Part shown: piece after piece, positions 27,579 through 51,070 of the stretch
How the letters are laid out: each line of letters starts with the position of its first letter
How positions within the stretch are numbered: position 1 is the first letter of the stretch
Source of the DNA: Chloranthus sessilifolius
Lineage: Eukaryota; Streptophyta; Magnoliopsida; Chloranthales; Chloranthaceae
Direction: 5' to 3'
Length of the DNA: 64,000 nucleotides
NCBI GenBank assembly: GCA_021018995.1
Contig: CM037587.1
Location: 66,421,604 to 66,485,603 of the forward strand
Translations under genes and position numbers: made by a program
Notes under the pieces: generated by a model
The model's database searches: none
What the model was told of the DNA's origin: nothing
Seen by the model: only the letters and a program-made list of their open reading frames with translations

Positions 27579-29732
27579 TGTGACAGCCCGAATTTTGGCA
27601 CCCCAAAATTCATGCCATCAGCATGACCCTCTAGGCCGTGCCCTGGGTTCTTTACGATACATTGGTATATACAAGCCAAAACTGTAATTAGGGCGCACGT
27701 AGCTACTCTAAACAAGTTCTCATATATAAAAAAAAATCATGGTATTGAAAAGCAGTCCTTGTCCCATGCCAATTCATGGGCATAAGAACTTACCCAAACC
27801 ATTGGTGATAACTGTTCATCCTAGACGTTTTATCAAAAGAAACGGTATTTAAATACATTCGAATAAAGAGGCTTGACATACCAAGCCGTACCTAATACTC
27901 TCAACTCACTCTCAAAGTATGCAGTGGGTTTCCTAGAAGAATTCCTCAGGAGGAGGTTCTGACTCTTCTGTGGGCACGAAATCCGAATCCCCTAGATCTG
28001 CGTCTCTAAAAGTCTCTGTTGCCGCTAGTCCTGGACCTGCGACGTATAGTCTAAGGGGAGTGAGCTACATCCTAGCTCCGTAGGGAAACAAAAAGAACAT
28101 ATAGATTAACCTTCACACATATGTCAGCAGTTTTAAAAGCATAAATTATCGAGTAACATTTATGGAAAATAGTTGAATAACTGGAATAAAAATAATGATT
28201 TCGACTGTCACTTTGCATGGTTTTGTTTAATCTCCTTGCTGGTTTAGTTGTGAATTTGGCCCAAATCTCTTAAATCTTAACTTAAGTAGTCCCTGAGCAA
28301 TATAGCATCGAGCCCCGATGGAATACCCGCCATCGTCGTCTAACTAGACAGTTGTTATATGTATTCCCTGGGATTACTGCCCAAGCCCCTTTCTCATAGG
28401 TGGCGGGGTCTATTCTTAAATCTACATCCCTGGGATGTGCTATAAATGTACGGATTGGCCGCCGTATCGGTCACGGATATCCTGCCGTGTCAGTTGTGGG
28501 TATCCCGCCACGTCGGTGGGGTATTCTAATCAAACCTTAAATAATAAAAATATCGAATGTGCTCTACATATAGTTATTCACCGTGATTATGCTAATTATA
28601 TTACATCAGGCCTCATCACATTACTTCCGTTTCACTGTTAGTTTTCATCTGCATCCCTGGGATGCCCCTGATTCCATTGCATCCTTCAGATGTTTACTTT
28701 ATAATTTTTCGTCCCCTGGGGACCTCAAGACTATCACGTTTGAAACTCACCCACACACCCTTTTTCATAATGATCATGCAGTACTTGACTATTTAATTGA
28801 ATTACACTACACATATGAATTGGTGAAATAATGAACATGTTTCAAGAATATTCCCTACCTCAACACAATCCAACGCGTTCCTTTCTCGCAGAAACTTATG
28901 CGCAACAACCCACGTTGAACCTACATTGTATGAGACACAGTTTTACTCAGAAGGTCCTTAGACCCCTTGAAAACACAGTCCTCATGAACCATACCCAAAA
29001 GAATTTAGAGAGCTGGAAGGAAGTCCTCGCGTGAGCGGTTATGTAGCCTCGCGCGAGCGAGCTCCTGACCTCACTCGAGCGGCCACTATTCATCGCTCGA
29101 GTGATTATTATTCATCGCTCGAGCAAGCACTATTCATCGCTCGAGCGAGCACTATTCATCGCTCGAGCGATTATTATTTGAGATATCTGGGATTTTAAGA
29201 GATGCCTCGCTCGAGCGAACCATTTTTTACCGCTCGAGCGAGCCACGAAACGGTGTATGTTCTCCATTCATTCGGAGATTATCCTCTTCCTCATGAGAAG
29301 ATTAATAGTGTCTAAGATCATTCGACCCCTAGTTTAAACTCTACTAAAAATATTTGAAAACATTTAAATCATACCTTACTCGATGGTCCCCCTATTATTT
29401 GATCCAACTTCTTTCAATCGTGAGGCCCTTCAAGGTCCTCTATGGAAAGACTAAGAACCTCACCTCTTTTGTAAACCTTTTCCTCTAAACTCGCTCCTTT
29501 TTCTCTCTATTTGTCCTTCTTTCTATCTAGGTTGATTTAGATTACGTAGGAGAGACTCTCCTCCCCACTTTCACTTATATAGTGAAAGCTACAAAATATC
29601 ACATATACACAGAAAGTGTGTATACGTAGTTTTAATTTGGTTTCCTTGTGAGACACTAATACTTGTGTATGAAGTGTGGTATTTTGCATGGTATGTGATG
29701 TGTATGGTTTTCAAAAATCTGGGGTTATGACA
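27579..29732 (-). repeat. Element D 3' LTR
   Basis: TGTGACAGCCC...GGGGTTATGACA on the + strand. The palindrome array is at 29028-29250. A likely TATA box (TATATAAG on the minus strand) is at 29574-29583. It is about 44 bp longer than its partner because of extra palindrome units. Confidence 0.95.
29028..29250. repeat. CGCTCGAGCGA palindrome array in D 3' LTR
   Basis: Nine copies of CGCTCGAGCGA and near variants. Four of them sit in direct repeats of about 25 bp with the spacer CACTATTCAT or TTATTATTCAT. XhoI-like CTCGAG is the centre of the palindrome. Confidence 0.9.
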
Positions 29733-29750
29733 TTCACTCCACCTTAAAAA
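29733..29750 (-). other. Element D polypurine tract
   Basis: On the minus strand TTTTTAAGGTGGAGTGAA directly precedes the LTR start TGTCATAA. Confidence 0.75.
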
Positions 29751-30248
29751 TTTTCGTCCTCGAAAATTGACGACCCACTAGAAAACAAAGAACATTATAT
29801 CCAACACAAAAGAATTCATTCGTAACAACACACTCGACAAATCAAAATCGGATCATGCAGCATATGGTTCAAAGACCCCAGATCATACCTGCATGGGGAA
29901 TTTTCTTTAATCTATACAAAATGAGAACACTCATATCGATCATCTTAATTATTTTAAAACTCTCTTAACGGTTATTTTCACAAGCAGAAGGGCACTATTC
30001 TACTCCAATTTATGCGAACCTGTACCAGGATTCAGTTACTATTATACAATCAAATATGTACACATTGTACCAATTAGACTCATTAAAATTTAAATTTATG
30101 CTTATCCACATTAAGTCACTCTTCATACCGGTCCAGGCATTGTCACGATTTTTTTTTTTCTTAACAAAATTTGTCACCAAAAAAATTTATAATGATTACA
30201 TTGAAGATCACAAAACACAAAACAACAACCAATAAGAAAGAGGAGGAC

Positions 30249-31531
30249 CTAGTCGTCACTCTGCTCATACTCTTCATCATCCTCCTCATCCTCCTCATCA
30301 TCGTCATCGTCCTCATCATCCACATCCTCGACAACCACCCTGGCGGCAGTGGCACCCACCGTAGTGCTCCTCGTAGCAGGGCCCGAGCTAGATGTTCCAA
30401 AAATAGCACCCCTCATGGCACTAACGCGCTCCTTGTATGACTGCGGATACACATGGCCCATGAGGTCTATGAGTAGCGCCTCCTGGAACCTCTGATGCAG
30501 CCTGATCTCCCGCTCCTACTGGAGGATCTCTTGCATCATGTTGGCGTCGGTGGTAGGTAGGGGCTGTGAAGATGAAGTAGAGGGAGCAGTAGGTGTCGCC
30601 GGTGTTTGTTGTGTGGCTTGTCGGGAAATTTGGCGATCTCTCTTCTTGTTGATACTAGTTTGGAGGCTCTTTAAATTTCGACTTAAATCTTGGGCGAGGT
30701 ATGGGATGATGTTGTCGGTGAGCGCGATTTCATTTGTTTTGATTTGAAACCCCTCCTTCCCATGTCGTGATTCAAGGAGTCGGGAGATCAAACGTGCATA
30801 GGGTAAACGGTTTATCGGTGGGGGAATAGCACCCCTTAGGTTTCTTTTGTGGGCATGCGCCATGCCCTTGATGACCACCATCGGAGCGCTAAACCACCTA
30901 TTGTGGAAAGCGGAGTGTAGAGCCCGCAAAATCATCTCTCGACGCTCTTGGTCATGACCGGTCGGGTGTAGATTCTTCTTAAAAATAATATCTAGCAACC
31001 GCATGCGTGGCGGTAATTGTGAGCGGGTGATTGATTGCCCTGATGCGGTGGCGCCGCCGGTAATGTCGGCGATAATGGTAGGGAAACCTACGTTCCTTGA
31101 AAAAGGTGGTAGAGAAAGGGGGTTTGGTGTGTAGGTGTTGGGGTAATGCATGACGGAGGAGACATCGACACTGCCGAAAATCAGTTCCTTGCCGTCAATG
31201 GTGACGAGGATAGAGTCCTCAGTCGGATAGGTCTTTAGTGTTTGATAAAACAATTTGACGAGCCTCGGATACTACCGATCTCCAAAAGGGTTCAACAGTG
31301 GTCGTAAGACGTTGTTTGTAAGAAAATCCGAGGTCTATGGGTGGACGTCGGATCCCCAAAACAGGAGGGATGGATCTCCCATTCATTTTCAAAAACTTTC
31401 GATCCCCACCATTCAGTTAATTGTATTGGGGTAGGAGGTGTGGATGGTGTCTGTGGCGCTTGATTGCACGAGGATGGCGATTGGATCGCCGTCCGTTTCC
31501 TAGGTTGGGTGCTAGGGCCTTGGGATGTCAT
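30249..31531 (-). pseudogene. Element D extra 3' ORF (shared core with the Athila third ORF)
   Basis: Minus-strand frames starting at 31531 (MTSQGPSTQPRKRTAIQS) are Pro/Ser-rich at first. The core (31253-30516) has MRLLDIIFKKNLHPTGHDQE followed by RREMILRALHSAFHNRWFSA and LPYARLISRLLE. This aligns with the cores of the B and C third ORFs (GH.QERR..I..AL..F...F.A, then Y/F.RLI). A basic stretch (NKKRDRQISRQA) and a strongly acidic tail (DDEDDDDDEEDEEDDEE, about 30250-30330) follow. No signal peptide or membrane segment is visible. It is unusual to find this ORF in a chromovirus. Function unknown; a nuclear role is inference. Contains breaks. Confidence 0.65.
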
Positions 31532-31726
31532 TCAGATAAAAGAAAATTTTCTAATTGAAAGAAAATAGAAAATTGTGAAGATTTCACCTTTTTGAAAGTT
31601 TTCAACGGATCGGATCGTTCGAAACCGACTTGAATCGGAAAAAAAAACTTGGAGGCAGAAGTAAAAGCCCTAACCCTCGCTCGGCTGGCTCTCGCGTGAA
31701 GATGAAATACGAAATAGAAGTTCGCT

Positions 31727-31881
31727 CCTATTTATATTCTGACCTCGCTCGAGCGGTTATAATTTCTCGCTCGAGCGGTCAAAATGCCTCGCTCGAGTGA
31801 GCAATAGCTATCGCTCAAGCGAGAGGAATTGTGATTTTATGTGGTTCGCTCGAGTGAACATAAGTGGTCGCTCGAGCGAGA
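31727..31881 (-). promoter_or_regulatory. Element D internal palindrome array plus TATA box before the 3' ORF
   Basis: Six copies of CGCTCGAGCGR or one- to two-base variants lie at 31745-31881, the same motif as the D LTR array. On the minus strand they are followed at once by TATAAATAGG (31727-31736) and about 200 nt later by the 3' ORF start (31531). The layout is that of an upstream element array plus core promoter. Transcription from here is inferred, not shown. Confidence 0.65.
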
Positions 31882-31940
31882 CCAGAAACATTTTTCTGGT
31901 ACCCTTTTGCTTGTTTTCGGTTTCTAATCTCATTACTAGT

Positions 31941-31960
31941 TATATATATATATATATATA
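31941..31960. repeat. (TA)10 microsatellite
   Basis: An uninterrupted TA run between the D palindrome array and the chromodomain end. Confidence 0.9.
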
Positions 31961-32090: not shown

Positions 32091-33745
32091 TCAGTTGGCA
32101 ATTTCGAACAATTTGGGATATTGTTCTCTAACATCTGCCTCACGTTCCCATGTTGCTTCTTCGACCGGATGGTTCTTCCATCGGACAAGTACTAAGGGAA
32201 TAACTTTTGTTTGCAACACATGCTCCTTTCGATCTAAAATTTTCACCGGCTCTTCAATCATGGTCATATCCTCATGCATTTCAAATGATTGGCTCTCAGC
32301 ACGTGATCAGGGTCATTGAGATATTTCCTGAGCATCGACACGTGGAACACGTTGTGCACTTGATCAAATAACGGTGGTAATCCAATGCGGTAAGCAACTT
32401 CCCCTACTCGACCTAGAACCTCAAATGGTCCGAGATAGCGGGGACTTATCTTCCCTCTCTTTCCAAATCTCATCACCCCCTTCATCGGTGATACTTTCAC
32501 GAACACATGTTCACCTACCTTAAAGTCTACACTCGTCCGCTTGATGTCAGCATAGCTTTTTTGTCTGCTTTGAGCCGCCTTTAGTCTTCCCCTGATCATG
32601 CGGACAATAGCCGCGTTATCTTTAAGTAGCTCGGGTCCCAAAACAAATTTCTCGCCAATTTCCTCCCAATTGATTGGTGATTTGCATCGTCTTCCGTACA
32701 AGGCTTCATACGGTGCCATTCCGATGCTCGTCTGAAAGCTATTATTATATGCGAACTCAATCAATGGTAGGTGTTGATCCCACGATCCTTGTAATTCTAA
32801 CATACATGCTCTAAGCGTGTCTTCAATGACTTGATTGACCCTTTCAGTCTGTCCGTCAGTTTGTGGGTGAAACGCCGTACTAAAATCTAGCCTAGTTCCC
32901 ATTCCTTCTTGAAATTTCTTCCAAAACTTTGATGCATATAATGGGTCCCGGTCTGAAACAATGCTACTTGGAATCCCATGTAAACGGACGATCTCTTTCA
33001 TATAGAGCTCTGCCAGTCTTCCCGCCGTGTACATCGTGTTGTAAGGCAAGAAGTGTGCTAACTTAGTCAATCGATCGACTACTACCCAAATGGCGTTATG
33101 CTTCCTTGCAGTTCGCGGTAGACCGACTATGAAATCCATGAAGATAGATTCCCACTTCCATTCCGGTATGGGTAGAGGCTGTAATGGGCCTGTGGGGTGT
33201 CTATGATCGATCTTCACTTGTTGGCACGTCAAATATCGTGACACGTACTCTGCTACATCTTGTTTCAAGCCTCTCCACCAGTAATTCTTTTTCAGATCTT
33301 GATACATCTTTGTGCTTCCCGGGTGGATAGCATAGCTTGACTTGTGAGATTCATCAAGAATAGTTCGCCACAAATCGACATTGTCTGGAATGCAAAGTCG
33401 CCCCTTGAATACTAAGGAACCATCCTCCTTGATTGAAAACTCAGATGTAATACCTTCAGTTACATCTTGACACATCTTCGTTAGAATTGGGTCTTTCATC
33501 TGTAGTTCTCGTATGTGTTCAAATATCACTGGTTTCACTGATATGTTGGCTAAGAAGGCTCCTATGGCTTGTGGCTGTATGTTTGCGCCACATAGCGCTA
33601 GATCCTTCAACAGTTTCCATCGATGTATACCCGAAATTAGATTAGAAAACTGAGCTGAACTTTTCCGACTCAAGGCGTCGGCCACTACGTTAGCTTTGCC
33701 TGGATGGTACTGTATGGAAAAGTCGTGGTCTTTGAGGAATTCCAT
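32091..33745 (-). CDS. Element D integrase and C-terminal chromodomain
   Basis: The main frame (33745-32264, 493 residues) opens in the tail of RNase H (HPGKANVVADALSRKSS). The integrase zinc region follows (HPGSTKMYQDLKKNYWW, then a CQQVK block). The core has WESIFMDFIVGLP, IVSDRDPLYASKFW and the HPQTDGQTERVNQVIED block, giving the D,D,E triad. GMAPYEALYGRRCKSP and a GPFEVLGRVGEVAYRIGLPP block follow. Downstream (32279-32091) is VLVRWKNHPVEEATWERE, a chromodomain with the expected aromatic residues, which in chromoviruses steers integration to marked chromatin. The boundary between the two frames is close. Confidence 0.9.
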
Positions 33746-33754
33746 CCACCTACG

Positions 33755-37156: not shown

Positions 37157-37158
37157 AC

Positions 37159-39268
37159 TGTGACAGCCCAAATTTCGGCACCCTGAAATTCGTGCCATCA
37201 GCACGACCCTCTAGGCCGTGCCCTGGGTTCTTTACGATACATTGGTATATACAAGCTAAAACTGTAATTAGGGCGCACGTAGCTACTCTAAACAAGTTCT
37301 CATATATAAAAAAAAATCATGGTATCGAAAAGCAGTCCTTATCCCATGCCAATTCATGGGCATAAGAACTTACCCAAACCATTGGTGATAACTGTTCATC
37401 CTAGATGTTTTATCAAAAGAAACGGTATTTAAATACATTCGAATAAAGAGGCTTGACATACCAAGCCGTACCTAATACTCTCAACTCACTCTCAAAGTAT
37501 GCAGTGGGTTTCCAAGAAGAATTCCTCAGGAGGAGGTTCTGACTCTTCTTTGGGCACGAAATTCGAATCCCCTGGATTTGCGTCTCTAAAAGTCTCTGCT
37601 GCCGCTAGTCCTGGACCTGTGACGTATAGTCTAAGGGGGGTGAGCTACATCCTAGATCCGTAGGAAAACAAAAAGAACATATAGATTAACCTTCACACAT
37701 ATGTCAGCAGTTTTAAAAGCATAAATTATTGAGTAACATTTGTGGAAAACAGTTGAATAACTAGAATAAAAATAATGATTTCGACTGTCACTTTGCATGG
37801 TTTTGTTTAATCTCCTTGCTGGTTTAGTTGTGAATTTGGCCCAAATCTCTTAAATCTTAACTTAAGTAGTCCCCGAGCAATATAGCATCGAGCCCCGATG
37901 GAATACCCGCCATCGTCGTCTAACTAGACAGTTGTTATATGTATTCCCTGGGAATACTGCCCAAGCCCGTTTCTCATAGGTGGCGGGGTCTATTCTTAAA
38001 TCTACATCCCTGGGATGTGCTATAAATGTACGGATTGGCCGCCGTACCGGTCACGGATATCCTGCCGAGTCAGTCGTGGGTATCCCGCCACGTCGGTGGG
38101 GTATTCTAATCAAACCTTAAATAATAAAAATATCGAATGTGCTCTACATATAGTTATTCACCGTGATTGTGCTAATTATATTACATCAGGCCTCATCACA
38201 TTACTTTCGTTTCACTGTTAGTTTTCATCTGCATCCCTGGGATGCCCCTGATTCCATTGCATTCTTCAGATGTTTACTTTATAATTTTGCGTCCCCTGGG
38301 GACCTCAAGACTATCACGTTTGAAACTCACCCACACACCCTTTTTCATAATGATCATGCAGTACTTGACTATTTAATTGAATTACACTACACATATGAAT
38401 TGATGGAATAATGCACATGTTTCAAGAATATTCCCTACCTCAACACAATCCGACGCGTTCCTTTCTCGCAGAAACTTATGCGCAACAACCCACGTTGAAC
38501 CTACATTGTATGAGACACAGTTTTACTCAGAAGGTCCTTAGACCCCTTGAAAACACAGCCCTCATGAACCATACCCAAAAGAATTTAGAGAGCTGGAAGG
38601 AAGTCCTCGTGTGAGCGGTTATGTAGCCTCGCGTGAGCGAGCTCCTGACCTCGCTCGAGAGGCCACTATTCATCGCTTAAGCGAGCACTATTCATCGCTC
38701 GAGCGATTATTATTTGAGATATCTGGGATTTTAAGAGATGCCTCGCTTGAGCGAACCATTTTTTACTGCTCGAGCGAGCCACGAAACGGTGTATGTTCTC
38801 CATTCATTCGGAGATTATCCTCTTCCTCATGAGAAGATTAATAGTGTCTAAGATCATTCGACCCCTAGTTTAAACTCTACTAAAACTATTCGAAAACATT
38901 TAAATCATACCTTACTCGACGGTCCCCCTATTGTTTGATCCAACTTCTTTCAATCGTGAGGCCCTTCAAGGTCCTCTATGGAAAGACTAAGAACCTCACC
39001 TCTTTTGTAAACCTTTTCCTCTAAACTCTCTCCTTTTTCTCTCTATTTTTCCTTCTTTCTATCTAGGTTGATTTAGATTACGTAGGAGAGACTCTCCTCC
39101 CCACTTTCACTTATATAGTGAAAGCTACAAAATATCACATATACACAGAAAGTGTGTATACGTAGTTTTAATTTGGTTTCCTTGTGAGACACTAATACTT
39201 GCGTATGAAGTGTGGTATTTTGCAGGGCATGTGATGTGTATGGTTTTCAAAAATCTGGGGTTATGACA
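37159..39268 (-). repeat. Element D 5' LTR
   Basis: Partner of 27579-29732. The palindrome array (seven units, 38605-38785) lies downstream of the likely TATA box (39111-39119) in element orientation, so it is probably in the transcribed leader here, unlike the upstream arrays in B, C and E. Confidence 0.95.
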
Positions 39269-39273
39269 TGAGA

Positions 39274-40362
39274 AGTGGAAGAGTTGTAAATAAAAATGTG
39301 GGTACTGAAAAGGAAGAAGAAAAAATTGAGGAAACTGCTAGAGATATGCAGCAGGAGCAGCATGATGTTAGCATTGGGGGTACTGATGTACCTCAGAAAA
39401 ATCAAAAAAATGAAAAACAGAAAAATCAAAAATATTTTAATGATGTTTCTAAAGCTGTAAATGAAGGACTAGTTCCTCATTTGCCATTTCCCCATGCCAT
39501 GAAATCTGCATCCCCTTTTGATAAAGGGAACACAAAAATAGATGAAATGATGGAGACTTTCAAGCAAGTCAAGATAAATCTACCTTTGCTTGATGCAATC
39601 AAACAGATCCCAGCATATGCAAAATTTTTGAAAGATATTTGCACTCACAAAAGACAATCTAGGATACAGTTATCCAAGAAGGTCTTTGTTGTGGAAAGAG
39701 TTAATCAGGTTTTGTCCATTACCACACGTCCTAAATTTCAAGATCCTGGAATCCCCACAATCCCTTGCATTATTAGGGAACATACCATTGAAAAGGCTTT
39801 ATTAGATTTGGGTGCTAGTGTCAACCTGCTTCCATATTCTGTATATGAGAAACTAGGTTTGGGAGAGTTAAAACCCACTCATGTGGTGTTACAACTAGCA
39901 GACAGATTTGAAAGAAAGCCAGTTGGGATGATTGAGGATGTGTTGGTAGGAGTAGATAAGTTTTTCTATCCTGCTGATTTTCTGGTATTGGACATGGAAC
40001 CTACAAAAAGCAAAACTTTCATCCCTGTCATTTTGGGGAGACCATTCCTGGCTACAGCCAATGATTGCATTCAGTGCAGGTCTGGTATTATGGAAGTCTC
40101 TTTTGGAAATATGAAGGTGAAGTTAAATATTTACAATGTAGTCACACAACCTCAATTCAGTTCTGAGGAGTGTTTTCTTGTTGATCTATTGGATGAACTA
40201 CTAGAAGAGACTTTACCACAGTTTTTGCAGTATGAAGATTTAACCACAAATTTTAAAAATGTTTGGAGAAATGCCGTGGAAGAGATAGCTGGTGCCTCAA
40301 AGACTGAGGAGGTTAGAGCTGTGCAGGAAACTCATGAAAAAATAGCAAGGTTTTCTTCATGA
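39274..40362 (+). CDS. Element C protease region
   Basis: The open frame resumes right after D's duplication with RSGRVVNKNVG, a continuation of the gag/linker. Glu/Lys/Gln-rich linker follows, then HLPFPHAMKSASPFDKGNTK and a conserved KINLPLLDAIKQIPAYAKFL block. The protease core has KALLDLGASVNLLPYSVYEK, GLGELKPTHVVLQLADRF, then FLVLDMEP and VILGRPFLATANDCIQCRSG. This is the standard Athila protease, with D-L-G-A-S as the active-site block. Confidence 0.85.
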   Translation, partial: SGRVVNKNVGTEKEEEKIEETARDMQQEQHDVSIGGTDVPQKNQKNEKQKNQKYFNDVSKAVNEGLVPHLPFPHAMKSASPFDKGNTKIDEMMETFKQVKINLPLLDAIKQIPAYAKFLKDICTHKRQSRIQLSKKVFVVERVNQVLSITTRPKFQDPGIPTIPCIIREHTIEKALLDLGASVNLLPYSVYEKLGLGELKPTHVVLQLADRFERKPVGMIEDVLVGVDKFFYPADFLVLDMEPTKSKTFIPVILGRPFLATANDCIQCRSGIMEVSFGNMKVKLNIYNVVTQPQFSSEECFLVDLLDELLEETLPQFLQYEDLTTNFKNVWRNAVEEIAGASKTEEVRAVQETHEKIARFSS

Positions 40363-42098
40363 AAACCTGCTATAAACTTCCTCTTCCACAAACAACCAAG
40401 GTACCTTTGTTACCTTCTTTACTCAGCCCACCTGATGTAGAGCTGAAACAGTTGCCAGAAAATATGAAATATGTGTTTTTAGGAGACTATAAAACATTGC
40501 TTGTGATTATTTCTTCCTCCCTCACTGAGGACCAGGAGGAAGAGCTGTTGATTGTATTGAAACAGCATAAGAGGGCAATTGGCTGGACTATTGCTGATTT
40601 AGGAGGAATCAGTCCAGCTGTTTGCATGCATAAAATTCATTTGGAAGAAGATGCAAAGCCTTCTAGAGAAATGCAAAGAAGGCTGAATCCTCATATGCAA
40701 GAAGTGGTCATGAAAGAGGTTGTTAAGTTGTTGGATGCAGGGGTCATTTACCCCATCTCAGATTCAGCTTGGGTGGCACCTACACAGGTGGTACCTAAGA
40801 AATTAGGAATTACTGTGCTAACGTCAGATTCTGGTAAGCTCATTTCAACTAGACAAACCACTGGTTGGCGGGTCTGTATTGATTACAGAAAGCTCAATAC
40901 AATGACCAGAAAAGACCATTTCCCTCTTTCATTCATTGATCAAATTTTAGATAAGCTAGCAGGAAAAACTTATTATTGTTTTCTTGACGGTTACTCTGGT
41001 TACAACCAGATTCCTATGTATCCACAAGATCAGGAAAAGACTACATTCACTTGCCCCTTTGGCACTTTTGCCTATAGGAGGATGCCTTTTGGTCTTTGTA
41101 ATGCCCCTGCTACCTTTCAAAGATGCATGTACTCCATTTTCTCTGATATGATTGACCAATTTATGGAGATTTTTATGGATGATTTTTCAATATATGGAGA
41201 TAGTTTTGCCCAATGTTTACATCATCTCAGCCTGGTGTTACAGAGATGTGAAGAAACCAATCTAGTTTTGAGCTGGGGGAAGAGCCATTTCATGGTCACT
41301 CAAGGCATTGTCCCTGGTCATGTTGTCTCCTACAAAGGCATTGAGGTGGACAGAGCAAAAATTGATTTAATTGCACATTTGCCTCCTCCCAAAACTGTTA
41401 AACAAATAAGAAGTTTTCTAGGGCATGCTGGATTTTACAGAAGGTTCATTAAGGACTTCAGTAAAATATCCAAGCCTCTTTGCCATTTATTGTGCCTAGA
41501 TGTTCCTTTTGTTTTCAATAATGAATGCCTGAAAGCATTTGAATTCTTAAAAAATTGTTTGATTTCAGCCCCAATACTACAGTCTCTAGATTATTCACTG
41601 CCTTTTGAGCTGATGTGTGATGCATCAGATTATGCTTTGGGAGCTGTTCTTGGACAGAGAAAGGATAAGCTACCACATGTCATAGCTTATGCCAGTAGAT
41701 TAATGATTGATGCACAGCTCAATTACACAATAACTGAGAAAGAGCTGTTGGCAATTGTTTTTGCTTTGGAGAAATTCAGGTCATATATTTTGGGTTCACA
41801 AATTGTGGTGTTCACTGACCACTCAGCCTTGAAATACCTTCTGTCTAAGAAGGATACCAAACCAAGATTAATCAGGTGGATCCTCCTATTACAGGAGTTT
41901 GATTTACAGATTAAAGATAAAAAGGGTGTGGAAAATGTGGTGGTTGACCACTTGTCGAGAATTCTAACTACTGAGATTGATAGGCTGCCTATCAATGAAT
42001 CTTTCCCTGATGAGCAACTTTTTGCTATCAGTACACGCCCCCCTTGGTTTGCAAATATAGTCAACTTTTTGGCTACTGGAAGAACTCCTCAACACTAG
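40359..42098 (+). CDS. Element C reverse transcriptase / RNase H
   Basis: A 579-residue open frame. The pre-RT block is HKRAIGWTIADLGGISPAVC. RT blocks are GWRVCIDYRKLNTMTRKDHF, FLDGYSGYNQIPMYPQDQEK, FGTFAYRRMPFGLCNAPATF and the catalytic IFMDDFSIYGDSF, then GHVVSYKGIEVDRAKIDLIA and RSFLGHAGFYRRFIKDFSKI. The RNase H has ELMCDASDYALGAVLGQR, TEKELLAIVFALEKFRSY and [20 protein letters not shown]. It ends in GVENVVVDHLSRI. Clear Athila lineage. In B the equivalent region (53600-52526) is far more decayed. Confidence 0.95.
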   Translation: MKTCYKLPLPQTTKVPLLPSLLSPPDVELKQLPENMKYVFLGDYKTLLVIISSSLTEDQEEELLIVLKQHKRAIGWTIADLGGISPAVCMHKIHLEEDAKPSREMQRRLNPHMQEVVMKEVVKLLDAGVIYPISDSAWVAPTQVVPKKLGITVLTSDSGKLISTRQTTGWRVCIDYRKLNTMTRKDHFPLSFIDQILDKLAGKTYYCFLDGYSGYNQIPMYPQDQEKTTFTCPFGTFAYRRMPFGLCNAPATFQRCMYSIFSDMIDQFMEIFMDDFSIYGDSFAQCLHHLSLVLQRCEETNLVLSWGKSHFMVTQGIVPGHVVSYKGIEVDRAKIDLIAHLPPPKTVKQIRSFLGHAGFYRRFIKDFSKISKPLCHLLCLDVPFVFNNECLKAFEFLKNCLISAPILQSLDYSLPFELMCDASDYALGAVLGQRKDKLPHVIAYASRLMIDAQLNYTITEKELLAIVFALEKFRSYILGSQIVVFTDHSALKYLLSKKDTKPRLIRWILLLQEFDLQIKDKKGVENVVVDHLSRILTTEIDRLPINESFPDEQLFAISTRPPWFANIVNFLATGRTPQH

Positions 42099-42149
42099 AA
42101 TAAAATGGATAAAGATCTTTTCCTCTCAAAGGTTAAACATTTTATTTAG

Positions 42150-43334
42150 GAGGATCCTTATCTGTTCAAGATTTGTGCTGACCAAATAATTAGAAGATGT
42201 GTCCCTGAAAAAGACTTTTATAGCATACTTTCCATGTGCCATGAACAGGCCTGTGGAGGCCATTTTAGTGGAAACAAGACTGCTGCAAAGATTTTGCAAT
42301 GTGGATTTTATTGGCCTACACTTTTCAAAGATGCATTGCAGCACTGTAAGTCATGTCAGAACTGCCAAAAATTGGGCAGTATTTCCAAGAGAAACTCAAT
42401 GCCTTTATAGCCCATTTTGGTAGTTGAATTGTTTGATATTTGGGGGATAGATTTTATGGGTCCCTTTCCTCCTTCAAATGGTTGTAATTTCATCTTAGTA
42501 GCTGTGGATTATGTATCCAAATGGGTTGAAGCCACAGCTACTAAAACCACTGATCATAGAGTTGTCCTGAAATTTTTAAAAGACAACATTTTTTCCAGGT
42601 TTGGTTCCCCCAGAGCTATTATCAGTGATGGGGGAAGCCATTTTTGTAATAAGCGTTTTGAAAGTTTATTGAAAAAGTACTCTGTGACTCATAGAGTAGC
42701 TACTCCATATCATCCACAGACCAGTGGACAAGTGGAGATTTCCAATAGAGAAATCAAACATATTCTGGAAAAGACTGTGAAGAAGGACAGAAAGGATTGG
42801 TCTTTTAAACTGAATGATGCATTATGGGCATATAGGACAGCCTATAAAACCCCAATTGGCATGTCTCCATTCAGATTGGTCTATGGCAAAGCATGCCATT
42901 TACCAGTGGAGTTAGAATATAAGGCCTTTTGGGCTATTAAAACCTTGAACATGGATCTTACTACTGCTGGAAATCACAGGAAACTGCAGCTTGCTGAGTT
43001 GGAGGAGCTGAGAATGGATGCATACACCAATGCAAGATCTTACAAAGAAAAGGTTAAAGCTTTCTATGACAAAAATCTGCTGAGAAGAGAGTTCATAGCT
43101 GGCTCTAAGGTATGGCTATTTAACTCAAAACTTAAGTTTTTTCTTGGAAAGCTGAGATCCAGATGGGAAGGGCCATATACTGTCATTCATGCATCTCCTT
43201 CTGGGGCTGTTGAAATTTTGGACCCAAGTGATGGGAGAACCTTGAAAGTAAATGGTCAGAGGCTCAAACCATGCATTGAAAATACCCTGGAGCTTGTGCT
43301 GACCATCTACCATCAAGAGCCCCCACAAATCTGA
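42150..43334 (+). CDS. Element C integrase
   Basis: The zinc region lies before 42417 in another frame ([10 protein letters not shown]-like block). The main frame (42417-43334, 305 residues) holds [53 protein letters not shown] and [20 protein letters not shown], giving the D,D,E triad. Then [20 protein letters not shown] and [18 protein letters not shown] follow. No chromodomain, as expected for Athila. Confidence 0.9.
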
Positions 43335-43426
43335 TATTAAACAACTGTATCATATGTATTTTACTCATGTTGTTTTGTAATTTTTGCATAGTTTCTTTCT
43401 CTCTGTTTTTAGTCATGTTTACATTC

Positions 43427-43755
43427 AATTCGAGAAGTTTATAATATGTGAAAAATGAATTCGCAAAGAAAAAAAAATTCATTTCGAAAAGTTCAATTTT
43501 CTATTCGAAAAGGATCTGGCCCTGTAACTAACTGCTCGAAAAGAATTACTTGCTTTTAGAATAGTTAGTTCTGAAGCTATTTGCTTTTCGAAATGTTGTT
43601 TCTGAAGCCATGTGCTTTTCGAATAAGTACTGATGCCATTCTCTTTTGAAAATTGGACTATTTTGAACTTTTCGAAAACTTCAAAGATACTTTGCGAAAA
43701 TCATTTTAAGCATATTTAAACCCTTTCGAAGCAAGGGTTTCATATTCGAAAGCCC
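43427..43755 (+). promoter_or_regulatory. Element C internal TTTTCGAAAA array before the 3' ORF
   Basis: Nine TCGA-centred motifs (TTTCGAAAAG, ATTCGAAAAG, TTTTCGAAAA and variants) recur in about 300 bp, matching the LTR array of the same element. CATATTTAAACC (43711-43722) is a TATA-like box inside the array's downstream edge. The 3' ORF start (44033) lies about 310 nt further on. Promoter function is inference. Confidence 0.55.
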
Positions 43756-44032
43756 TCCCAGAACATCCTGTTTCACAGAAAACCCATTTTCTTTTGATCC
43801 CTGCGTGTTTTTAGAGTTCAGCTCCAATTTTCTTCATATTTGTTCGATGGATTAAGCGTGAGGAGAGGGACTTTTTGCTTCTTATTCTAGTGGATTTCAT
43901 CAAGAGATCAACAAGTTCTGCTAATACCCTAGATTTTGGTATTTTTTTTTCTGTACATTGCCTCTGTTTGTGTTTTGCAAAGTTCAATTTGATATCAGCA
44001 TTCATTGTGTGAGATTCAAACAAAACTTTAAG

Positions 44033-46530
44033 ATGGGGAAAACTGAAAAATCATTGGCCGCAATGTTCCCACAGTCCTCTGCTAAGAAAGTTAGCAAACC
44101 CTCTACAAAAGGAAAAGCCAAAACCTCAGCCAAGAGAAAACCTTTGATGGATAAAGCTGATAGAATTGAGAAGGGGAAGAAGGTTAGACATGAGAAACCC
44201 TTCCCAGTAGCTGACCCTAGTCCTGAGCCTGAGCTTCCTTCTCTCCCTATACATTTGGTACTGCCAAACCCATTCATTGAAGCTCAGAAGCTGATCCCAG
44301 AGCTTATCGTGGATGAAACCTTTTTCTTAAACAAACCTGAATGTAAGCTATCCCTGTACTACATCAGGGATGCTTCATTGAGCAATATTCTAACCCCTCT
44401 TCCAGAGAAAATCTATCCAAGAATGGTGAGATTGTGGTACCAAAACATGGTCAAAGTGACTGAGAAGGATGCTGATGTCCCTACTCATATAATTTTCATT
44501 GATGATTGCGATTTAACTGTCACTTATGAAGACATTGGAAATGCTTTGGGGATCCCATTTCAACATGACCCGACTGGGCCCTTTGGTTTCCCCAGAGACA
44601 GCTTCTTTTAGGGAAATGGCTGCACATCTAACCAAAGGCATAGTTGGCAGTGGACAGTCCATCATGAGGAGAGACTTAGCACCTCAATTTTTGCTAATGG
44701 ACTCCATTTTGAGGGGATCTTTTTATGTCACCGGGCACAGCCAGGAAAGAAGAACACCAATTTTGGAGGCCCTCTTTCATTTCTCTAAGGGGCAATTCTT
44801 TAATGCCCCTATGCTCATTTTTGAAGCCATGGCTGACATCAGTGCCAAGATGAAAAAGGAACAGAAAATAGCTGGCATACCATTTGGAAGGCTGATCACA
44901 GCCATGTTAAGGGCAAAATTCGACATTGATGAGGAAGAGCCATTCGAGATTATCTCCCCTCATGCATTTGGAAAAAGGGCTTGGACCACAAGCCAAACCA
45001 TGTTAAATAAAATGAGGGAAGAAGTTGCACCAGCTCCTGCAGCTACCCTGGAACCTGCTACACTTGAACCAGCCCCTGCAGCTGCCCAAGAAGTTCCTAT
45101 ACCTGACCCTGAGGTGCCCAGCTCTTCCGCTGCACCCATTCCACTTGCAGCTGGTGTTGAACCAACTGTCACTATTGAGGTGCCCAGCTCTTGGGCACCC
45201 ATTATTGAAGGGTCATCATCCTACCCACTTCACCGTCTCACCTATTCCAACTGCTCCATCACTCATACCCACCATCATCCCTAATTGCGACTCTCCTCTA
45301 CACCAACCACCAATCACTCTTACACCACCAGTTTCCCCTACCAATGTCCCAAGTATGGCCACAGAGTTTGTGGAACAATCTCCTAGCACTCCCCTTATCC
45401 CAAGCTTCCCAGATTCACCAGCTTCTTCAAATCATACACCTGAAATCACTCATACCCCTGAACCTGAGATATTGACAACAGAGGCCTATTCATCATTGAT
45501 GGGAGCTATCTTGGAGAACATTGAACTTGAATCTGCACCTCTACCTGACCCTCCTCATTTCACCCATGTGGCTACTTCCCCCTTCACAACCATCTCACCC
45601 ATTGACCCTCAACAATCTACATCAATTTTACCAGTCCCTACTTTGCATACCACACCCCCACCTGACACAATTAACCAAATATTCACCTTTCTCCAATCCA
45701 TCCAAACACAACTACAAGTCAACACAGGCAATCAGTCTGTAACAAATGCCCTTCTCCAAACCTTAGCCTCCACATCCTAAACAACCACCTTAGCCACTGT
45801 ACCTGCTGTTGCTGAACATGCTACCCAAACAGACCCTGAGGTAGTTTTTGTAGATCCACCCATCCTCACCACTGCTGACAATGTTACTCAAACATAACTT
45901 GAGGTAGTACATTTTGAGTCCCCTTCAACTTTCCTCAATGTCTCTGATCAAGCTACTCAAACTGACCCTGAGGTCATACTTTTGGACTCCTCTTCTCCCA
46001 CTGCTGGGATACCTTTGGTCCCCTACCACTCCATTCCCATTCCCAGATTTTCCACTCTCAAAAGGGCTATGGAAGAGAACCCTTATGTCTGTCGAGATGT
46101 CCTCAAGGGGTTAGCTGATCTGCAAGCTTACATTAGAACCCCTTATGAAGACTAGATTCAAAAATTGGAGTTGCTCATGAAATTTGAGAGAGAGAAGATG
46201 CAAGACCTACTGGGTCAAACTTTTCAGATGGTTAGGAGTGAACAGCACAAGGTCACCATGTTGCAAGCACAACTTGAATAGGAAAAATTGAGAGCTTCTA
46301 GACTTGAAATGTATATTGGCCTCACCAAAAAGATCAAATCTGAGGAATACACCGAGCTGCAAGGCACAATCCAGGAAAAGGCTAAATCGAGTTCAGACTC
46401 CAATACTGACTCAAGTTCTGACTCTAACAGTGATTCCAGTTCTGATCCCATTGAACCAACTTATGATACAGATTTTGACCCAAGTTATTCGAATACATTG
46501 TACATGTTTGTTTTGTGGGTCTGTCATATG
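44033..46530 (+). pseudogene. Element C 3' ORF (third ORF, not envelope-like)
   Basis: The first frame begins MGKTEKSLAAMFPQ, then is very basic (KKVSKPSTKGKAKTSAKRK and DRIEKGKKVRHEK), then has IPELIVDETFFLNK-like and YPRMVRLWYQNMVKV blocks. The next has the shared core: GIVGSGQSIMRRDLAPQF, YVTGHSQERRTPILEALFHF and GRLITAMLRAKFDIDEEEPF. A Pro/Ser/Thr-rich linker follows (45025-45780), then a helical part and an acidic Ser/Asp tail (SSDSNTDSSSDSNSDSSSD). Same architecture as in B. No signal peptide or membrane segment is seen. Several breaks. Confidence 0.7.
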
Positions 46531-47384: not shown

Positions 47385-47416
<32 letters not shown>

Positions 47417-48117
47417 AGGAAAAGTCATTTCATTGGAAATTTGAAAAAGAAAGAGAAAAAGATGGCCACTTTGGCTTTGAAAATTCAAAGAAGAAGATGA
47501 AATTGTGCTGAAATGAAGAAGGTGTGTCTACCACCTCCTGACCTTGACTGACTTCTCAATTTGGAACTCCATTCCACCTCTTTATTCTTGATAAATTTCA
47601 CCCATAAGCCACAATACCACCCAAGTCAAAGTCCTTACTGATCAATGATGGATTGAGCTGGCACATGGAGATAAGGATTTGTGTAATCTATGGTGAAAAG
47701 AGTAGTAGATTCAGAACTGAAAAATTATGCCTATGCTAATGCTTACAGTCCTATTTGAGGATTGTAACTGCTCTTGAGCTGTGTGAAATAGTATAACCCT
47801 CCTATTTGCATGATGAGTGAAAACCCTTGTGAGAGTTGAGTTTGAAATTAAATCATTTGGGGTAACATCAAAACTGATTTTTCAAATAGAAGGCAAGCTT
47901 TTCATTAATTTTTCCTGTAAAAACTTTTTGACACAAACTGAGTGAATGGTAAAAGGAATTACAGCAGAATTTTAGTTTTAAACTGATGTTTTCTTGAAGA
48001 TCTTTTTACAGCTTGACTGATGCAAGTGTGAATAACCTGACTGGATAAAAGTCTGCTTTAACAGAACTGCATTGATATTAACTGATTTATTGGAGGAGTT
48101 TGTGGGTACCTTCACTG
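46689..48117 (+). other. Element C 3' untranslated region
   Basis: About 1.4 kb with no coding blocks. It includes a long A-rich run (47383-47420). Short matches to the B equivalent occur (for example 47030-47105). Confidence 0.6.
47383..47420 (+). repeat. Poly-A run
   Basis: Two A runs separated by a single G, then A-rich DNA. Likely slippage in the 3' untranslated region. Confidence 0.85.
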
Positions 48118-48129
48118 AAAACCCTCAGG

Positions 48130-48222
48130 AGACTTCACTCCTCCACTAGGGATCACCTAGGGGTTTAAAAGGCTTGTTGCATATGCTAAATGCAACTGTG
48201 TTCCCTACAAAAGTGGCCTTTT
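48130..48222 (+). other. Conserved non-coding block near the C 3' LTR
   Basis: Counterpart of 19436-19530 (reverse strand). The match is identical over about 50 bases and about 90% over the rest. It contains GCATATGC, a small palindrome. It ends about 60 bp before the 3' LTR. Confidence 0.75.
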
Positions 48223-48261
48223 CATTCTGTTTTTAATGTTGTCTTTGCTCAGGGACTAGCA

Positions 48262-48280
48262 AAGCTTAGGTTTGGGGGTG
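48262..48280 (+). other. Element C polypurine tract
   Basis: AAGCTTAGGTTTGGGGGTG directly before the LTR start TGTTGAG. Confidence 0.8.
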
Positions 48281-50144
48281 TGTTGAGAACTGGAAAATAC
48301 CATTTTCCACCCCTTAACTTGGGTCTTGATGGACCTTTGAGAGAACTAAATAAGTGTTTTAAGTGCTTATTTCACAGCTAACAATAAAGGCAGGCTTAAC
48401 CCTGAAAGCAGCCTAAAAGTGCCAAAAAGATGAGAATTCCGGTGAAACTAATGGAAGAAAGAGAAGGGACAAACTCACTGGCTGGCAAGATGCATAAACC
48501 AAAGAGGACAAAGGCCTAATCTCAACCTGGAAGGAGGATTGGAAGCTATTCGAACAGCAGAAGGCAGTACAAATTGCTTTTCGAAAAGAACCTGAACTTT
48601 TCGAAAAGAACCTGAAATCTGCGAAAAGTACTAAAAGCTCCAGGTTTAGTTTTTGAAGAGAATCTGAACTCTCTGAAAGGATTTATGAACTTTTCGAAAA
48701 GAAGAGAACCCCTTACGAACAACACCAGACCTGTACGAAAATAGCTTCAGAAGCCACATAACTTTACGAAAAGTTCTCCAAACTGTGCGAAATGGTATTT
48801 TGAAGATTCCCAGCATCTACAAGGGTAATTCAGTAATCTCTGCATGTGCCTCAATGCATTTAAAAACCCAGGGACATTCCAGAAGATTCTGAGCACGAAC
48901 CAAAGGCATATTCCACCCCATGTGAACACCCGAAAATGAGATTACTTGGCGGGAACTTCTAGAAGCTCTAACTGATTTTTGAATTACATAACAGAATTGA
49001 TGCTTCTGTCACCTGATTGGCTGAACTAGATCAAGCAGTTCTGATTGGCCAAAATAGATCTGGATCCTTGCGCTCGACTCTTATTGGTAGATACAGATCC
49101 AACCAATTTTGATTGGTTGATACACATCTGAGCTAGACTTGGAGAAAACTATAAATAGATAAACCATTTGCCCAATTTGGGTATCCAGATTTTGAGTTTC
49201 ATTTCTATTCCCCCATTTTCATTTCAGATAGCTTGTCTGAAACTCCTGTAATAGCCTAGCTTTTATTTGTAATTGAGATCTATGAGATAATTCTGTAATT
49301 CAAGAGAGAATTGTGTTCAAGACTACAAATCGAGAGTCGTTGTCGAGCTCTCAGAATTGTAATGGTGAATTTGAAAAGGTTGCTGTGAACCGTATGTTCT
49401 CAATTGGATTCGTGTTAAGGGTTCCCTGTGATCTCCTGATTGCACTAGACTCCTTTAGATTTACTGTTTTTCCAGCAATTTTCCTTAATTCATTACGCCT
49501 GTGAAAATTAACGTTTGTAACCTAACTTTTTCATAGCATTTGTAGTGATATTCTCATTCTGAATTGAGGGTCCAGATTAAAGACTATTGGATGGTCTGTG
49601 TCCATTAAAGTGGACAGACCATAGCCATAAGCTTAACTCTAATCCTTGACTTAGATTACTTTCTCTTACATCTGTGCTTGTAGCCAGATGAAGATTGGAT
49701 CATATCTCATTTGATCTACATTTAGTCTCATTTTGCACCAAGTACTAAATCAAAGTTAGATATTATTTCTCCATTCTTATTAATTTACATCAAATCTCCC
49801 CAACTCGGATCTGGATCATTTAGTTTAATTTTTACTTTTATCATGTAGTTAATGTGACAAATTCAACCTCCCATCTTATGTGCTTTATAGATAGGATCAG
49901 AGGTCAGATCTAGTAGCTCAGATCTGAAGGTTTATCTTATATTTTAAATCAATTCCCTGTGGACGATCTTTTACTCACTTACATTTAAAACTTGCTACAA
50001 TTGGCCCTGATCTTGCAGGCTAATTAAGTTCTCTCTGTGCTGATATTTTCTTATTCTTTTTAATTTTCCAAATTCAGTACAATTCATCATCTGTAAGTCT
50101 GTTTTTAAAACACAAATAAATCATGCACATTTAGAACAGCAACA
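48281..50144 (+). repeat. Element C 3' LTR
   Basis: Partner of 24055-25911; 1864 against 1857 bp. TATA box TATAAATA at 49150-49157. The palindrome array (48548-48795) and U5 block (49954-50019) are both present. Confidence 0.95.
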
Positions 50145-50254
50145 GGTCTCCTTAGGTTTTGTGAGTTGCCTAGTGGATTTCCTAGTGGCTTTGGTGGTGG
50201 ATTTGGAAGGTGCTTTGAAAAAGGTGGCCAAGGTGTCTTCTTGATCGGACATTG
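50145..50254 (-). pseudogene. Element B 3' ORF, first part
   Basis: The minus-strand start MSDQEDTLATFFKAPS leads into a basic stretch (KSTTKATRKSTRQLTKPKE) before element C's right edge. A basic N-terminus is shared with the C copy. This small piece is the start of the ORF whose main part lies at 24049-21324. Confidence 0.55.
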
Positions 50255-50627
50255 TATACTCAAACAATTGCAATTCACTCCCAATCACCCCACAGACCTT
50301 TGTTATCAATCAAAATAACCACACCAATTTGCAAATGAAATGTCAAAAACACAAAGTGGAGCAGAAGAGAGGCTTACCAGTAGAAACCTGGGGTTTCTCA
50401 GATCTTAAAATGCACATCACCAAACCAGCTCAGACTAGGAGCAAAGTGTAGCTTTTGATGAATTGAAGCAATGGGGAAACTAGCCAGGAAGTTGTTATAA
50501 CAGCCAATGAGATAGAGAGAAAAAACACAATAGAAAAATTGCTAGAGCAAACTTAAAGTGCAAAGAGAAGCTATCGAATGGGAAAAAATGGAGTTGTTGT
50601 TAGGTTTAAAGCAGTGGGAAACGACTT

Positions 50628-51070
50628 TCGACAAGATTGGGGCAAGGTGTCGACAGGTTGAGGCAACCTGTCGAAGAGTAGAAAGTCACTGATCCTCACG
50701 AGAGGTTCACGCAATCCTGTCGACAGATTCAAGTGGACAACAACAATCATTATGAGAGGTTCATAGAACCTCTCGATAGGTTCTTTGAACTCAATATGTA
50801 ATCCTCTCGACAGGTTCTAGACTCCAGAAAATTTTCTTCAAGGGGTTCACAGAACCTTTCGATAGGTACCCTGAACTTGTTGAGAATTCAGCCAAAAATC
50901 TTCAAAACCTGTCGAAATACTTTTGGATCCTATCGACAACCATTTTTACACTTTCAGAACCTGTCGAGAATTAATTCACACCTCTCGACAGCTTTTAGAT
51001 CTTGTCGAAAAGCAAACTGGAAACTCTCAGAACCTGTCGAGATGTTCATAAAACCTATCGACAGGTTATA
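50628..51070 (-). promoter_or_regulatory. Element B internal CCTSTCGACAGG array before the 3' ORF
   Basis: About fourteen variants of AACCTSTCGAYAGGTT occur in about 440 bp, matching the B LTR array. The array ends about 370 nt before the 3' ORF start (50254). TTTAAACC on the minus strand (about 50603-50610) is a weak TATA-like match at the array's downstream edge. Promoter function is inference. Confidence 0.6.

Follow-up and report, generated by a model that had tools for sequence, protein, structure and literature searches.

TCGA-centred palindrome arrays shared by the LTRs and the upstream side of a third ORF in three nested plant retroelements

We found that each of three nested Ty3/gypsy elements has a single family-specific palindrome, which forms an array in either LTR and a further array in the interval from integrase to a third ORF, ORF3 (3/3 elements). 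The window, the whole 64-kb stretch of Chloranthus sessilifolius DNA analysed, contains elements B and C (Athila-like) and D (a chromovirus). Matches to gag, integrase and a chromodomain indicated the Ty3/gypsy type, and the pol domains are in the order protease-RT-integrase. The LTR pairs and pol genes identify LTR retrotransposons and not VANDAL (Mu-like) DNA transposons. The pairing of arrays put forward in the original prediction is real: the same motif, matched exactly or nearly so, is present in the LTR and integrase-to-ORF3 arrays of B, C and D where it had been placed. These internal matches span 31745-31879 in D, 43427-43752 in C and about 50624-51065 in B. On an evenly balanced judgement, the arrays are operator-like sites for a dimeric protein, most likely the element's own ORF3 product, acting on the LTR and on its own promoter. 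Our sample is three elements, two of them related, and the window holds no control element that has complete LTRs but lacks a third ORF.

The LTRs were located by self-BLAST and by their ends:
17074..19362, (-) strand: B 3' LTR, left boundary approximate; 88.8% to 56616-58950
56616..58950, (-) strand: B 5' LTR, left boundary approximate
24055..25912, (+) strand: C 5' LTR; 95.0% to the right copy, GGTCT flanks
48281..50144, (+) strand: C 3' LTR
27579..29733, (-) strand: D 3' LTR; 95.4% to 37159-39269, TGAGA flanks
37159..39269, (-) strand: D 5' LTR

The nine arrays are as follows:
18324..18987, (-) strand: B array in the 3' LTR, 25 sites at <=4 mismatches
57935..58574, (-) strand: B array in the 5' LTR, 24 sites at <=4 mismatches
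50623..51066, (-) strand: B internal array, 17 sites at <=4 mismatches, with an extra weak site at 50575
24319..24568, (+) strand: C array in the 5' LTR, 8 sites at <=3 mismatches
48545..48795, (+) strand: C array in the 3' LTR, 9 sites at <=3 mismatches
43425..43760, (+) strand: C internal array, 9 sites at <=3 mismatches as far as 43702, then a weaker site at 43743
29026..29242, (-) strand: D array in the 3' LTR, 9 sites at <=3 mismatches, steps mostly 22 bp
38606..38778, (-) strand: D array in the 5' LTR, 7 sites at <=4 mismatches
31744..31880, (-) strand: D internal array, 6 sites at <=2 mismatches

Each internal array lies between the end of the pol region and the ORF3 start codon. The flanking positions are the integrase end (51299) and the start codon (about 50252) in B, the integrase end (43334) and the start codon (about 44033) in C, and the pol stop (about 32091) and the start codon (about 31531) in D.

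The palindromes are specific to their own arrays. At <=1 mismatch, 15/15 D sites, 12/13 C sites and 24/25 B sites in the window fell inside arrays of the same family; at <=2 mismatches, the matches were 20/21 for D, 19/21 for C and 36/40 for B. The motifs originally proposed are present, and their spelling needed adjustment: the B motif is better written as AACCTNTCGANAGGTT, and the C motif is roughly AACTTTTCGAAAAG with weaker ends. All three share a TCGA core. With TCGA as the sole criterion, the nine arrays had densities of 16-37 per kb, compared to 2.4 per kb outside. In the D arrays, the half-site was followed by GCGA in 19 of 30 cases, compared to 0 of 294 outside.

The motifs were also recovered without prior knowledge of their sequence. 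We searched both strands of each region for enriched 12-mers, allowing <=2 mismatches and excluding low-complexity seeds, and compared counts with 20 dinucleotide shuffles per region. In eight of the nine regions the palindrome of the family, or a variant of it shifted or differing by 1-2 bases, was the commonest word; in the C right LTR, palindrome variants were level with an unrelated word. The expected enrichment over shuffled sequence was borne out for B (16, 16 and 13 matches; highest shuffled counts 5, 5 and 5), for D (9, 7 and 7; highest shuffled counts 6, 5 and 4) and for the C internal array (8; highest shuffled count 5). It did not hold in the C LTRs, where counts of 7 and 6 merely equalled the shuffled maxima of 7 and 6, so that the case for the C LTR arrays rests on specificity and phasing and not on word count. 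LTR and internal arrays, analysed separately, yielded the same motif. We detected no covariation between half-sites within sites, and an initial EM motif run settled on base composition and was uninformative.

The internal arrays are not recent copies of LTR DNA, as had been anticipated: with the sites masked, comparison of the two places gave no similarity (best E 0.21). Sites in B and C are separated by a mix of steps of about 21, 31, 42 and 52 bp, equal to two to five helical turns. Phasing tests pooled one LTR per element. For the 60 pooled spacings (sites at <=3 mismatches), vector strength at 10.5 bp was 0.79, and 0 of 20000 random sets scored as high. Spacings in B and C defined by TCGA alone (n=38) gave 0.76 (p 0.0002), compared to 0.13 for TCGA spacings outside the arrays (n=31), and the register persisted to about 160 bp. 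The B internal array taken alone at <=2 mismatches was weakly phased (n=8, 0.62, p 0.04). D, with its 22-bp steps, fitted the 10.5-bp register more poorly, its best period being near 13.

CpGs in B and C were kept in the sites and stripped from the linkers and pol. The observed/expected CpG ratio was 0.05 in pol, 0.21-0.41 in linkers and 0.64-1.36 over the arrays. Regional loss of methylation as the source of this CpG richness was ruled out, the linkers being depleted. D pol showed no CpG depletion (0.83). The B linkers are unrelated to one another (identity 0.25-0.29 compared to 0.23-0.28 for shuffled sequence). The helical phasing, the unrelated B linkers and the survival of CpGs in B and C sites are new here, and together they point to double-stranded DNA sites bound by a dimeric protein on one face of the helix.

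The third ORFs are shared, as had been claimed: they are homologous in 3/3 elements, with matches between their pieces at 1e-19 to 9e-45. All are broken:
21324..24073, (-) strand: B third ORF, open pieces 21324-21740, 21741-23027, 23135-23662 (core) and 23663-24073
43925..45780, (+) strand: C third ORF, overlapping open pieces 43925-44611, 44517-45284 (core) and 45016-45780
30516..31271, (-) strand: D third ORF core piece, 251 residues, PF20167 match below cut-off

The first part of the B ORF, at about 50148-50252, was severed by the insertion of C. Pieces of these broken ORFs scored 24.6 (D), 19.8 (C) and 23.1 bits (B) against PF20167 (putative plant transposon protein), and none reached the curated cut-off of 45 bits, so the relation is a below-cut-off one. 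Between B and C, ORF3 changes faster than pol: pN was 0.29-0.39 for ORF3 compared to 0.09-0.14 for gag and pol pieces, with pS of 0.66-0.87. We report pN and pS because dS was uncorrectable in 5/8 comparisons. By inspection, B, C and a relative, P0001, have N-terminal stretches rich in lysine or arginine. Of the alignments, A2 has three rows and leaves out two N-terminal pieces that were misplaced in A1; A4 combines the three window pieces with 53 relatives among 120 listed of 1407 for P0001.

ORF3 is favoured as the binder because the third ORFs are homologous and, between B and C, change faster than pol. We infer a mechanism in which a dimeric, sequence-specific DNA-binding protein would recognize the operator-like arrays in each LTR and just upstream of the third ORF, with the TCGA centre common to all sites and the flanking bases fixing family specificity. 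Whole-turn spacing would align adjacent dimers along the same side of the helix and so allow cooperative binding. The putative binder, the third-ORF protein, would target both the LTR and the promoter of its own gene, with activation or anti-silencing as its most likely role, and this action would keep the protein and both arrays in step. The earlier reading, that the third ORF belongs to a self-regulatory or anti-silencing system, is partly supported.

Alternatively, the arrays might be enhancer sites for host transcription factors, with the third ORF sharing the promoter type and doing a different job. Palindromic repeats of plant LTRs are often sites for such factors, the boxes of Sireviruses matched mainly stress-factor sites without a single common factor (Bousios et al. 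2010, PMC2829016, in excerpts), and phasing and CpG retention would suit any dimeric factor. However, three elements in one genome have three non-overlapping specificities. In addition, the B and C motifs differ in their flank bases, and do so alike in LTR and internal arrays, despite pol proteins about 80% alike, which a shared factor would not require. We consider host factors a rather unlikely explanation.

It is less likely still that the product of the third ORF has nothing to do with the arrays and is an RNA-acting silencing suppressor or an envelope-like protein. Excerpts of a sunflower study (PMC11728184) describe a structural likeness of maize and sorghum Tekay aORF proteins to a dsRNA-binding protein, and an antisense Athila aORF that has a transmembrane segment. 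However, the ORF here is a sense 3' ORF, unlike those 5' aORFs and that antisense ORF, and for a sense Athila ORF matching PF20167 the same excerpts give a predicted nuclear location. The core pieces also lack a strong hydrophobic segment, as the original prediction of no envelope features implied: in a check by hydropathy alone, on open pieces, the highest 19-residue means were 0.96 (D), 0.96 (C) and 1.37 (B), which rules out a clear transmembrane envelope for these pieces. A value of 1.58 in C ORF3 lies ahead of the first start codon. AlphaFold models were poor (mean pLDDT 41.9 for D ORF3 and 46.2 for P0001) and resolved no fold, and Foldseek with these two models gave no match at E<=0.001. 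A protein search with D ORF3 and PDB sequence searches gave nothing informative. Scans of viral contigs with D ORF3, C integrase and D RT, and of genome contigs with D RT, found no related DNA; two scans for the array pattern gave a single match, L001, on a 67% GC contig without similarity to the window.

ORF3 might instead bind the arrays to repress, which would hold down copy number or set the timing of expression. This is a variant within the best explanation, and we give it a similarly small share. Phased operators beside the promoter of the binding protein itself suit negative autoregulation equally well, and in D the LTR array is located downstream of the TATATAA box, not upstream as first described. 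In the LTRs of B and C, the array precedes the TATA box. Against repression, a selfish element would presumably be selected more easily for activation or escape from silencing.

It is very improbable that the arrays act as RNA structures, as a source of small RNAs or in packaging or dimerization. The internal arrays do fold far better than shuffled sequences (z -6.6 for B, -5.2 for C and -8.7 for D), and excess small RNAs have been reported on maize Sirevirus palindromes (PMC10760457, in excerpts). However, any palindrome array folds, so these z-scores do not discriminate; adjacent sites are no more complementary than distant ones (lower in 5/6 arrays); RNA offers no reason for a 21/31/42/52-bp helical register with unrelated linkers; and the arrays of B and C stand upstream of the LTR TATA box. 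Least probable of all, the arrays might be functionless by-products of minisatellite-like tandem duplication, for which the 22-bp steps and partly alike LTR and internal linkers of D speak (identity 0.47-0.56 compared to 0.34-0.38 shuffled), leaving D less clear, but a simple origin of this kind is ruled out for B by its unrelated linkers, spacings in B and C combine steps of two to five helical turns, CpG-bearing sites persist amid loss of other CpGs, and the same motif occurs at two unrelated places per element.

The cis architecture has a precedent that the original prediction missed, in the RM boxes of Sireviruses, as described in excerpts of Bousios et al. 2010 (PMC2829016). Palindromic, element-specific boxes occur in the LTRs of 13 Sireviruses; the nine with an ENV gene have further linker boxes, 77/79 of them upstream of ENV, and the four without ENV have none. 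As in B, C and D, there are many LTR copies, with more upstream of the third (ENV-like) gene, and the boxes are CpG-rich, with an internal promoter suspected. Every Sirevirus element has 8 or more of them, located in the LTR's upper half ahead of TATA; the B and C arrays also precede TATA, whereas the D array follows its TATATAA box. Their core is CGG-CCG in 12/13 whereas B, C and D have TCGA, although the Vitis and Tnd-1 motifs also have a central TCGA. Sireviruses are Ty1/copia elements whereas B, C and D are Ty3/gypsy, Athila-like and chromovirus, and in those excerpts ENV is not tied to binding and helical phasing is not mentioned for RM boxes (PMC2829016). The Sirevirus logic has so far been known as cis boxes alone, and excerpts from the MASiVEdb authors say that the ENV-like gene may not be a true envelope gene (PMC3414828).

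VANDAL elements are alike in having clusters of short family-specific motifs in their own non-coding DNA, and related, fast-changing VANC proteins with different targets (Hosaka et al. 2017, PMC5735166; Sasaki et al. 2023, PMC10398659). They differ in being DNA transposons with non-palindromic motifs, YAGTATTAY and AGTTGTCC/AC, and in that protein binding and loss of methylation have been demonstrated for VANC (PMC5735166, PMC10398659). Excerpts on the Retand TRP28 antisense ORF (PMC11963269) and Grande gene23 (PMC7264820) likewise describe an extra ORF between pol and the 3' LTR, proposed to be DNA-binding or nuclear, with its own promoter in Grande. Unlike ORF3, these are antisense ORFs of other families, and the excerpts mention no paired palindrome arrays.

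The third ORF of plant Ty3/gypsy elements has long been labelled 'envelope-like', and the matched motif opens its role in such retroelements to a cheap and exact test. Foamy virus Tas offers a parallel, as an element-encoded activator of both the LTR and an internal promoter that drives Tas itself; foamy viruses are animal retroviruses, and we know of no homology to the B/C/D system. More tentatively than the operator reading, we suggest that the third ORF may be a sequence-specific, dimeric DNA-binding regulator of helically phased TCGA palindromes in the LTR and at its own promoter, that arrays and protein may switch specificity together, and that VANC-like or Tas-like self-activation and anti-silencing may extend across unrelated plant retroelement lineages. 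If each ORF3 binds its own palindrome only, abundant plant elements would hold orthogonal DNA-binding modules, maybe controlling their own silencing.

A candidate core promoter for ORF3 was seen in D; the B and C internal intervals contain no TATAWA box:
31728..31736, (-) strand: TATAAATAG box, 8 bp past the last D internal site

High CpG divergence between LTRs suggests that these copies are or were methylated.

The window consists of plant-type DNA with nested Ty3/gypsy elements. Three of these (B, C and D) have a third ORF (ORF3), an extra gene between integrase and the 3' LTR, and the analysis covers this one window and these three elements, two of which are related. C contains D, and C itself lies within the start of B's ORF3. 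A 5-bp repeat flanks D (TGAGA) and C (GGTCT). The LTR pairs, found by self-BLAST, and the arrays located between pol and ORF3 (internal arrays) were:

17074-19362 and 56616-58950, minus strand, LTR pair of B (88.8% identity)
~24055-25912 and 48281-50144, plus strand, LTR pair of C (95.0% identity)
27579-29733 and 37159-39269, minus strand, LTR pair of D (95.4% identity)
50623-51066, minus strand, internal array of B
43425-43760, plus strand, internal array of C
31744-31880, minus strand, internal array of D

D is a chromovirus, because a chromodomain (PF00385, E 5.8e-8) lies 3' of its integrase. We take D to be, more finely, a Tekay element, and B and C to be Athila elements. ORF3 of B, ORF3 of C and pol of D are broken into pieces. 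The D chromodomain (32094-32291) is in a different frame from the integrase ORF (32264-33754).

We found that each element carries its own TCGA-centred palindrome in two arrays. As originally observed, the same motif was present in the LTR and between pol and the start of ORF3 in 3/3 elements. The consensus site is TCGCTCGAGCGA in D, CTTTTCGAAAAG in C and CCTSTCGASAGG in B. Profiles built separately from LTR and internal arrays agreed in each family, giving AACCTNTCGANAGGTT for B, CTTTTCGAAAAG with AA in front for C and TCGCTCGAGCGA for D. Judged from coordinates, the LTR array begins ~265 bp into the LTR in C, ~377 bp in B and ~492 bp in D. In B and C a TATAAATAG box lies downstream of the array, and in D a TATATAAG box lies upstream of it. 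In the D internal interval a TATAAATAG box starts 8 bp past the last site; the C and B internal intervals contain no TATAWA box.

The motifs were also family-specific, as had been proposed. Of all sites with ≤1 mismatch in the whole window, 15/15 (D), 12/13 (C) and 24/25 (B) were in the family's own arrays. Two sites were strays: the B internal array holds one of C type, and one of B type lies at 12864. The families are told apart by the bases flanking TCGA. GCGA followed 19/30 half-sites in D arrays and 0/294 outside arrays; AAAG followed 16/34 in C arrays, 1/96 in B arrays and 1/294 outside; and NAGG followed 51/96 in B arrays, 2/34 in C arrays and 4/294 outside. With TCGA as the sole criterion, density was 16-37 per kb in arrays versus 2.4 per kb elsewhere. 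In a motif-free search the top-ranked word was the family's own palindrome, or one close to it, in eight of the nine regions; in the remaining one, the right LTR of C, palindrome variants tied for first. The expected enrichment over shuffled sequence was borne out for B (counts far above), D and the C internal array (above), and failed for both C LTRs, where counts were level with the shuffled maxima. Across nine other stretches of the window, near-palindromic 12-mers reached 5 matches at most. Loose, widely spaced palindromes of type AAGCTCGAGCTC, with a TCGA or TTGA centre, occur at 14512, 14757 and 15087; they may be the decayed remains of a related array, or due to chance.

We rejected the explanation that the internal array is a copy of LTR DNA. 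Unmasked comparison of the two arrays within an element gave weak matches, the strongest in D (70% over 159 bp, E 2e-14), including inverted ones because the units are palindromic. With the sites masked, the best match had an E value of 0.21. The LTRs of B and C aligned only in the first 90 bp and near the far end, and their internal intervals did not align. Linkers (the DNA between neighbouring sites) of close B sites were no more alike than shuffled sequence. C has only 3-4 close-site linkers per array, and D linkers were partly alike between LTR and internal arrays.

Sites in B and C were in helical register. Neighbour spacings were mostly 20-23, 30-35, 40-44 and 51-54 bp, with exceptions that include 27 and 71 bp. 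A pooled test (sites with ≤3 mismatches, one LTR per element, 60 spacings) gave a vector strength of 0.79 at 10.5 bp, the best period, and 0/20000 random sets were as high. Singly, vector strength was 0.91 (n=8) for the C internal array, 0.95 (n=8) for the C 3' LTR, 0.75 (n=14) for the B internal array and 0.87 (n=17) for the B 5' LTR; at ≤2 mismatches the B internal array alone gave 0.62 (n=8, p 0.04), and its best period was then 15.3. Using only TCGA positions in B and C, without the flank filter, gave 0.76 (n=38, p 0.0002; best period 10.8), and TCGA outside arrays showed no phasing (n=31, 0.13). The B and C register persisted for pairs up to ~160 bp apart and was not significant at 160-250 bp. 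D (0.74-0.84 at 10.5 bp) is weaker evidence, because it has 22-bp steps, a best period near 13 and partly similar linkers.

Site CpGs have been retained in B and C. In C and B pol (39235-43334 and 51299-54697, respectively) CpG observed/expected was 0.05 (~2 CpG per kb). In the same elements it was 0.21-0.41 in linkers versus 0.64-1.36 in arrays, an excess that is partly built in, since the motif itself has a CG. The telling point is how many site CpGs survive in two elements that have lost most of their other CpGs. D, nested in B and C, differs in its pol (0.83 versus 0.05); its arrays were at 1.46-1.73, with 0, 0 and 2 CpGs in the linkers. Between paired LTRs, divergence of CpG bases in sites versus outside arrays was 18% versus 13% in D, 28% versus 25% in C and 22% versus 31% in B, mostly transitions; other bases outside arrays diverged by 2-9%. 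For non-CpG bases of C, the values were 10% in sites versus 3.5% outside. Since site CpGs diverged about as fast as outside CpGs, the dead copies in the window do not protect their sites. We therefore infer that the replicating lineage kept them.

Based on the palindromes, the helical register, the retention by selection and the presence in two unrelated places per element, the sites are very probably double-stranded DNA targets for a dimeric protein. Action at the RNA level is less likely: the arrays fold strongly as RNA, but in 5/6 of them complementarity was no higher between neighbouring sites than between distant ones.

ORF3 was confirmed as common to the three elements. The cores are homologous (B-C, 54% over 120 columns; D-B, 29% over 165; D-C, 30% over 214) and match Pfam PF20167 below its cut-off. 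No strong hydrophobic segment was found in the core pieces, consistent with the proposed absence of envelope features. Between B and C, pN was 0.29 in the ORF3 core, 0.38 in an N-terminal piece and 0.39 in a later piece, versus 0.09-0.14 in RT, RNase H, integrase and gag pieces; pS was 0.66-0.87 in all pieces compared. ORF3 is thus constrained, yet it changes at about three times the rate of pol. The predicted structures were of poor quality, and a fold search gave no significant match. Searching with the C core brought up two proteins. One of them, P0001, has 431 residues, a reading frame that is open throughout and an arginine-rich stretch near residues 67-80. Its relatives number 1407 at E ≤ 0.001, and the listed ones are on contigs of 44-151 Mb, presumably plant chromosomes. 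Proteins beyond the window that are related to ORF3 (P0001-P0120, about 380-580 residues) are on chromosome-size contigs, and many of their clusters represent dozens to hundreds of copies (one, 549). Together they form a very large family.

The protein predicted to bind the arrays is the element's own ORF3, and we judge the chances of this to be about even. Four points suggest it: each element has a single motif of its own in a shared host genome; B and C differ from each other in both arrays together; the second array is positioned at the ORF3 promoter side; and ORF3 is the sole extra gene found in all three elements, homologous and fast-changing. Such binding could bring about activation, anti-silencing or repression.

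The cis architecture is the same as in Sireviruses, which have a different motif core. Palindromic boxes occur in 13 Sirevirus elements; the 9 with ENV have boxes in the element's linker region, 77/79 of these upstream of ENV, and the 4 without ENV have none there (PMC2829016). VANC systems offer a functional model (PMC5735166, PMC10398659). A 2024 sunflower paper describes a sense 3' ORF in Athila that is partially similar to PF20167 and is predicted to locate to the nucleus (PMC11728184). A 2026 sunflower paper reports methylation drops in the LTRs of one Athila clade, and asks, leaving the question open, whether Athila- and Tork-encoded proteins shape their own methylation (PMC12844716). 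In the portions of openly licensed literature covered, no description of such arrays in Athila or Tekay was found.

Other features were seen in the window. B pol has a 75-bp near-tandem duplication (53115-53262, 92% alike). Gag-like pieces lie on both sides of B (16501-17071 and 58951-59331), and B seems to have inserted in gag of another plus-strand Athila-like element. A remnant of a further Ty3/gypsy-type element is on the plus strand at 1460-6777 (RVT_1 match 4595-5005, E 1.7e-11); its LTRs were not found within the window. A tandem repeat at 60976-61392 has units ~90-165 bp apart that are 80-90% alike.
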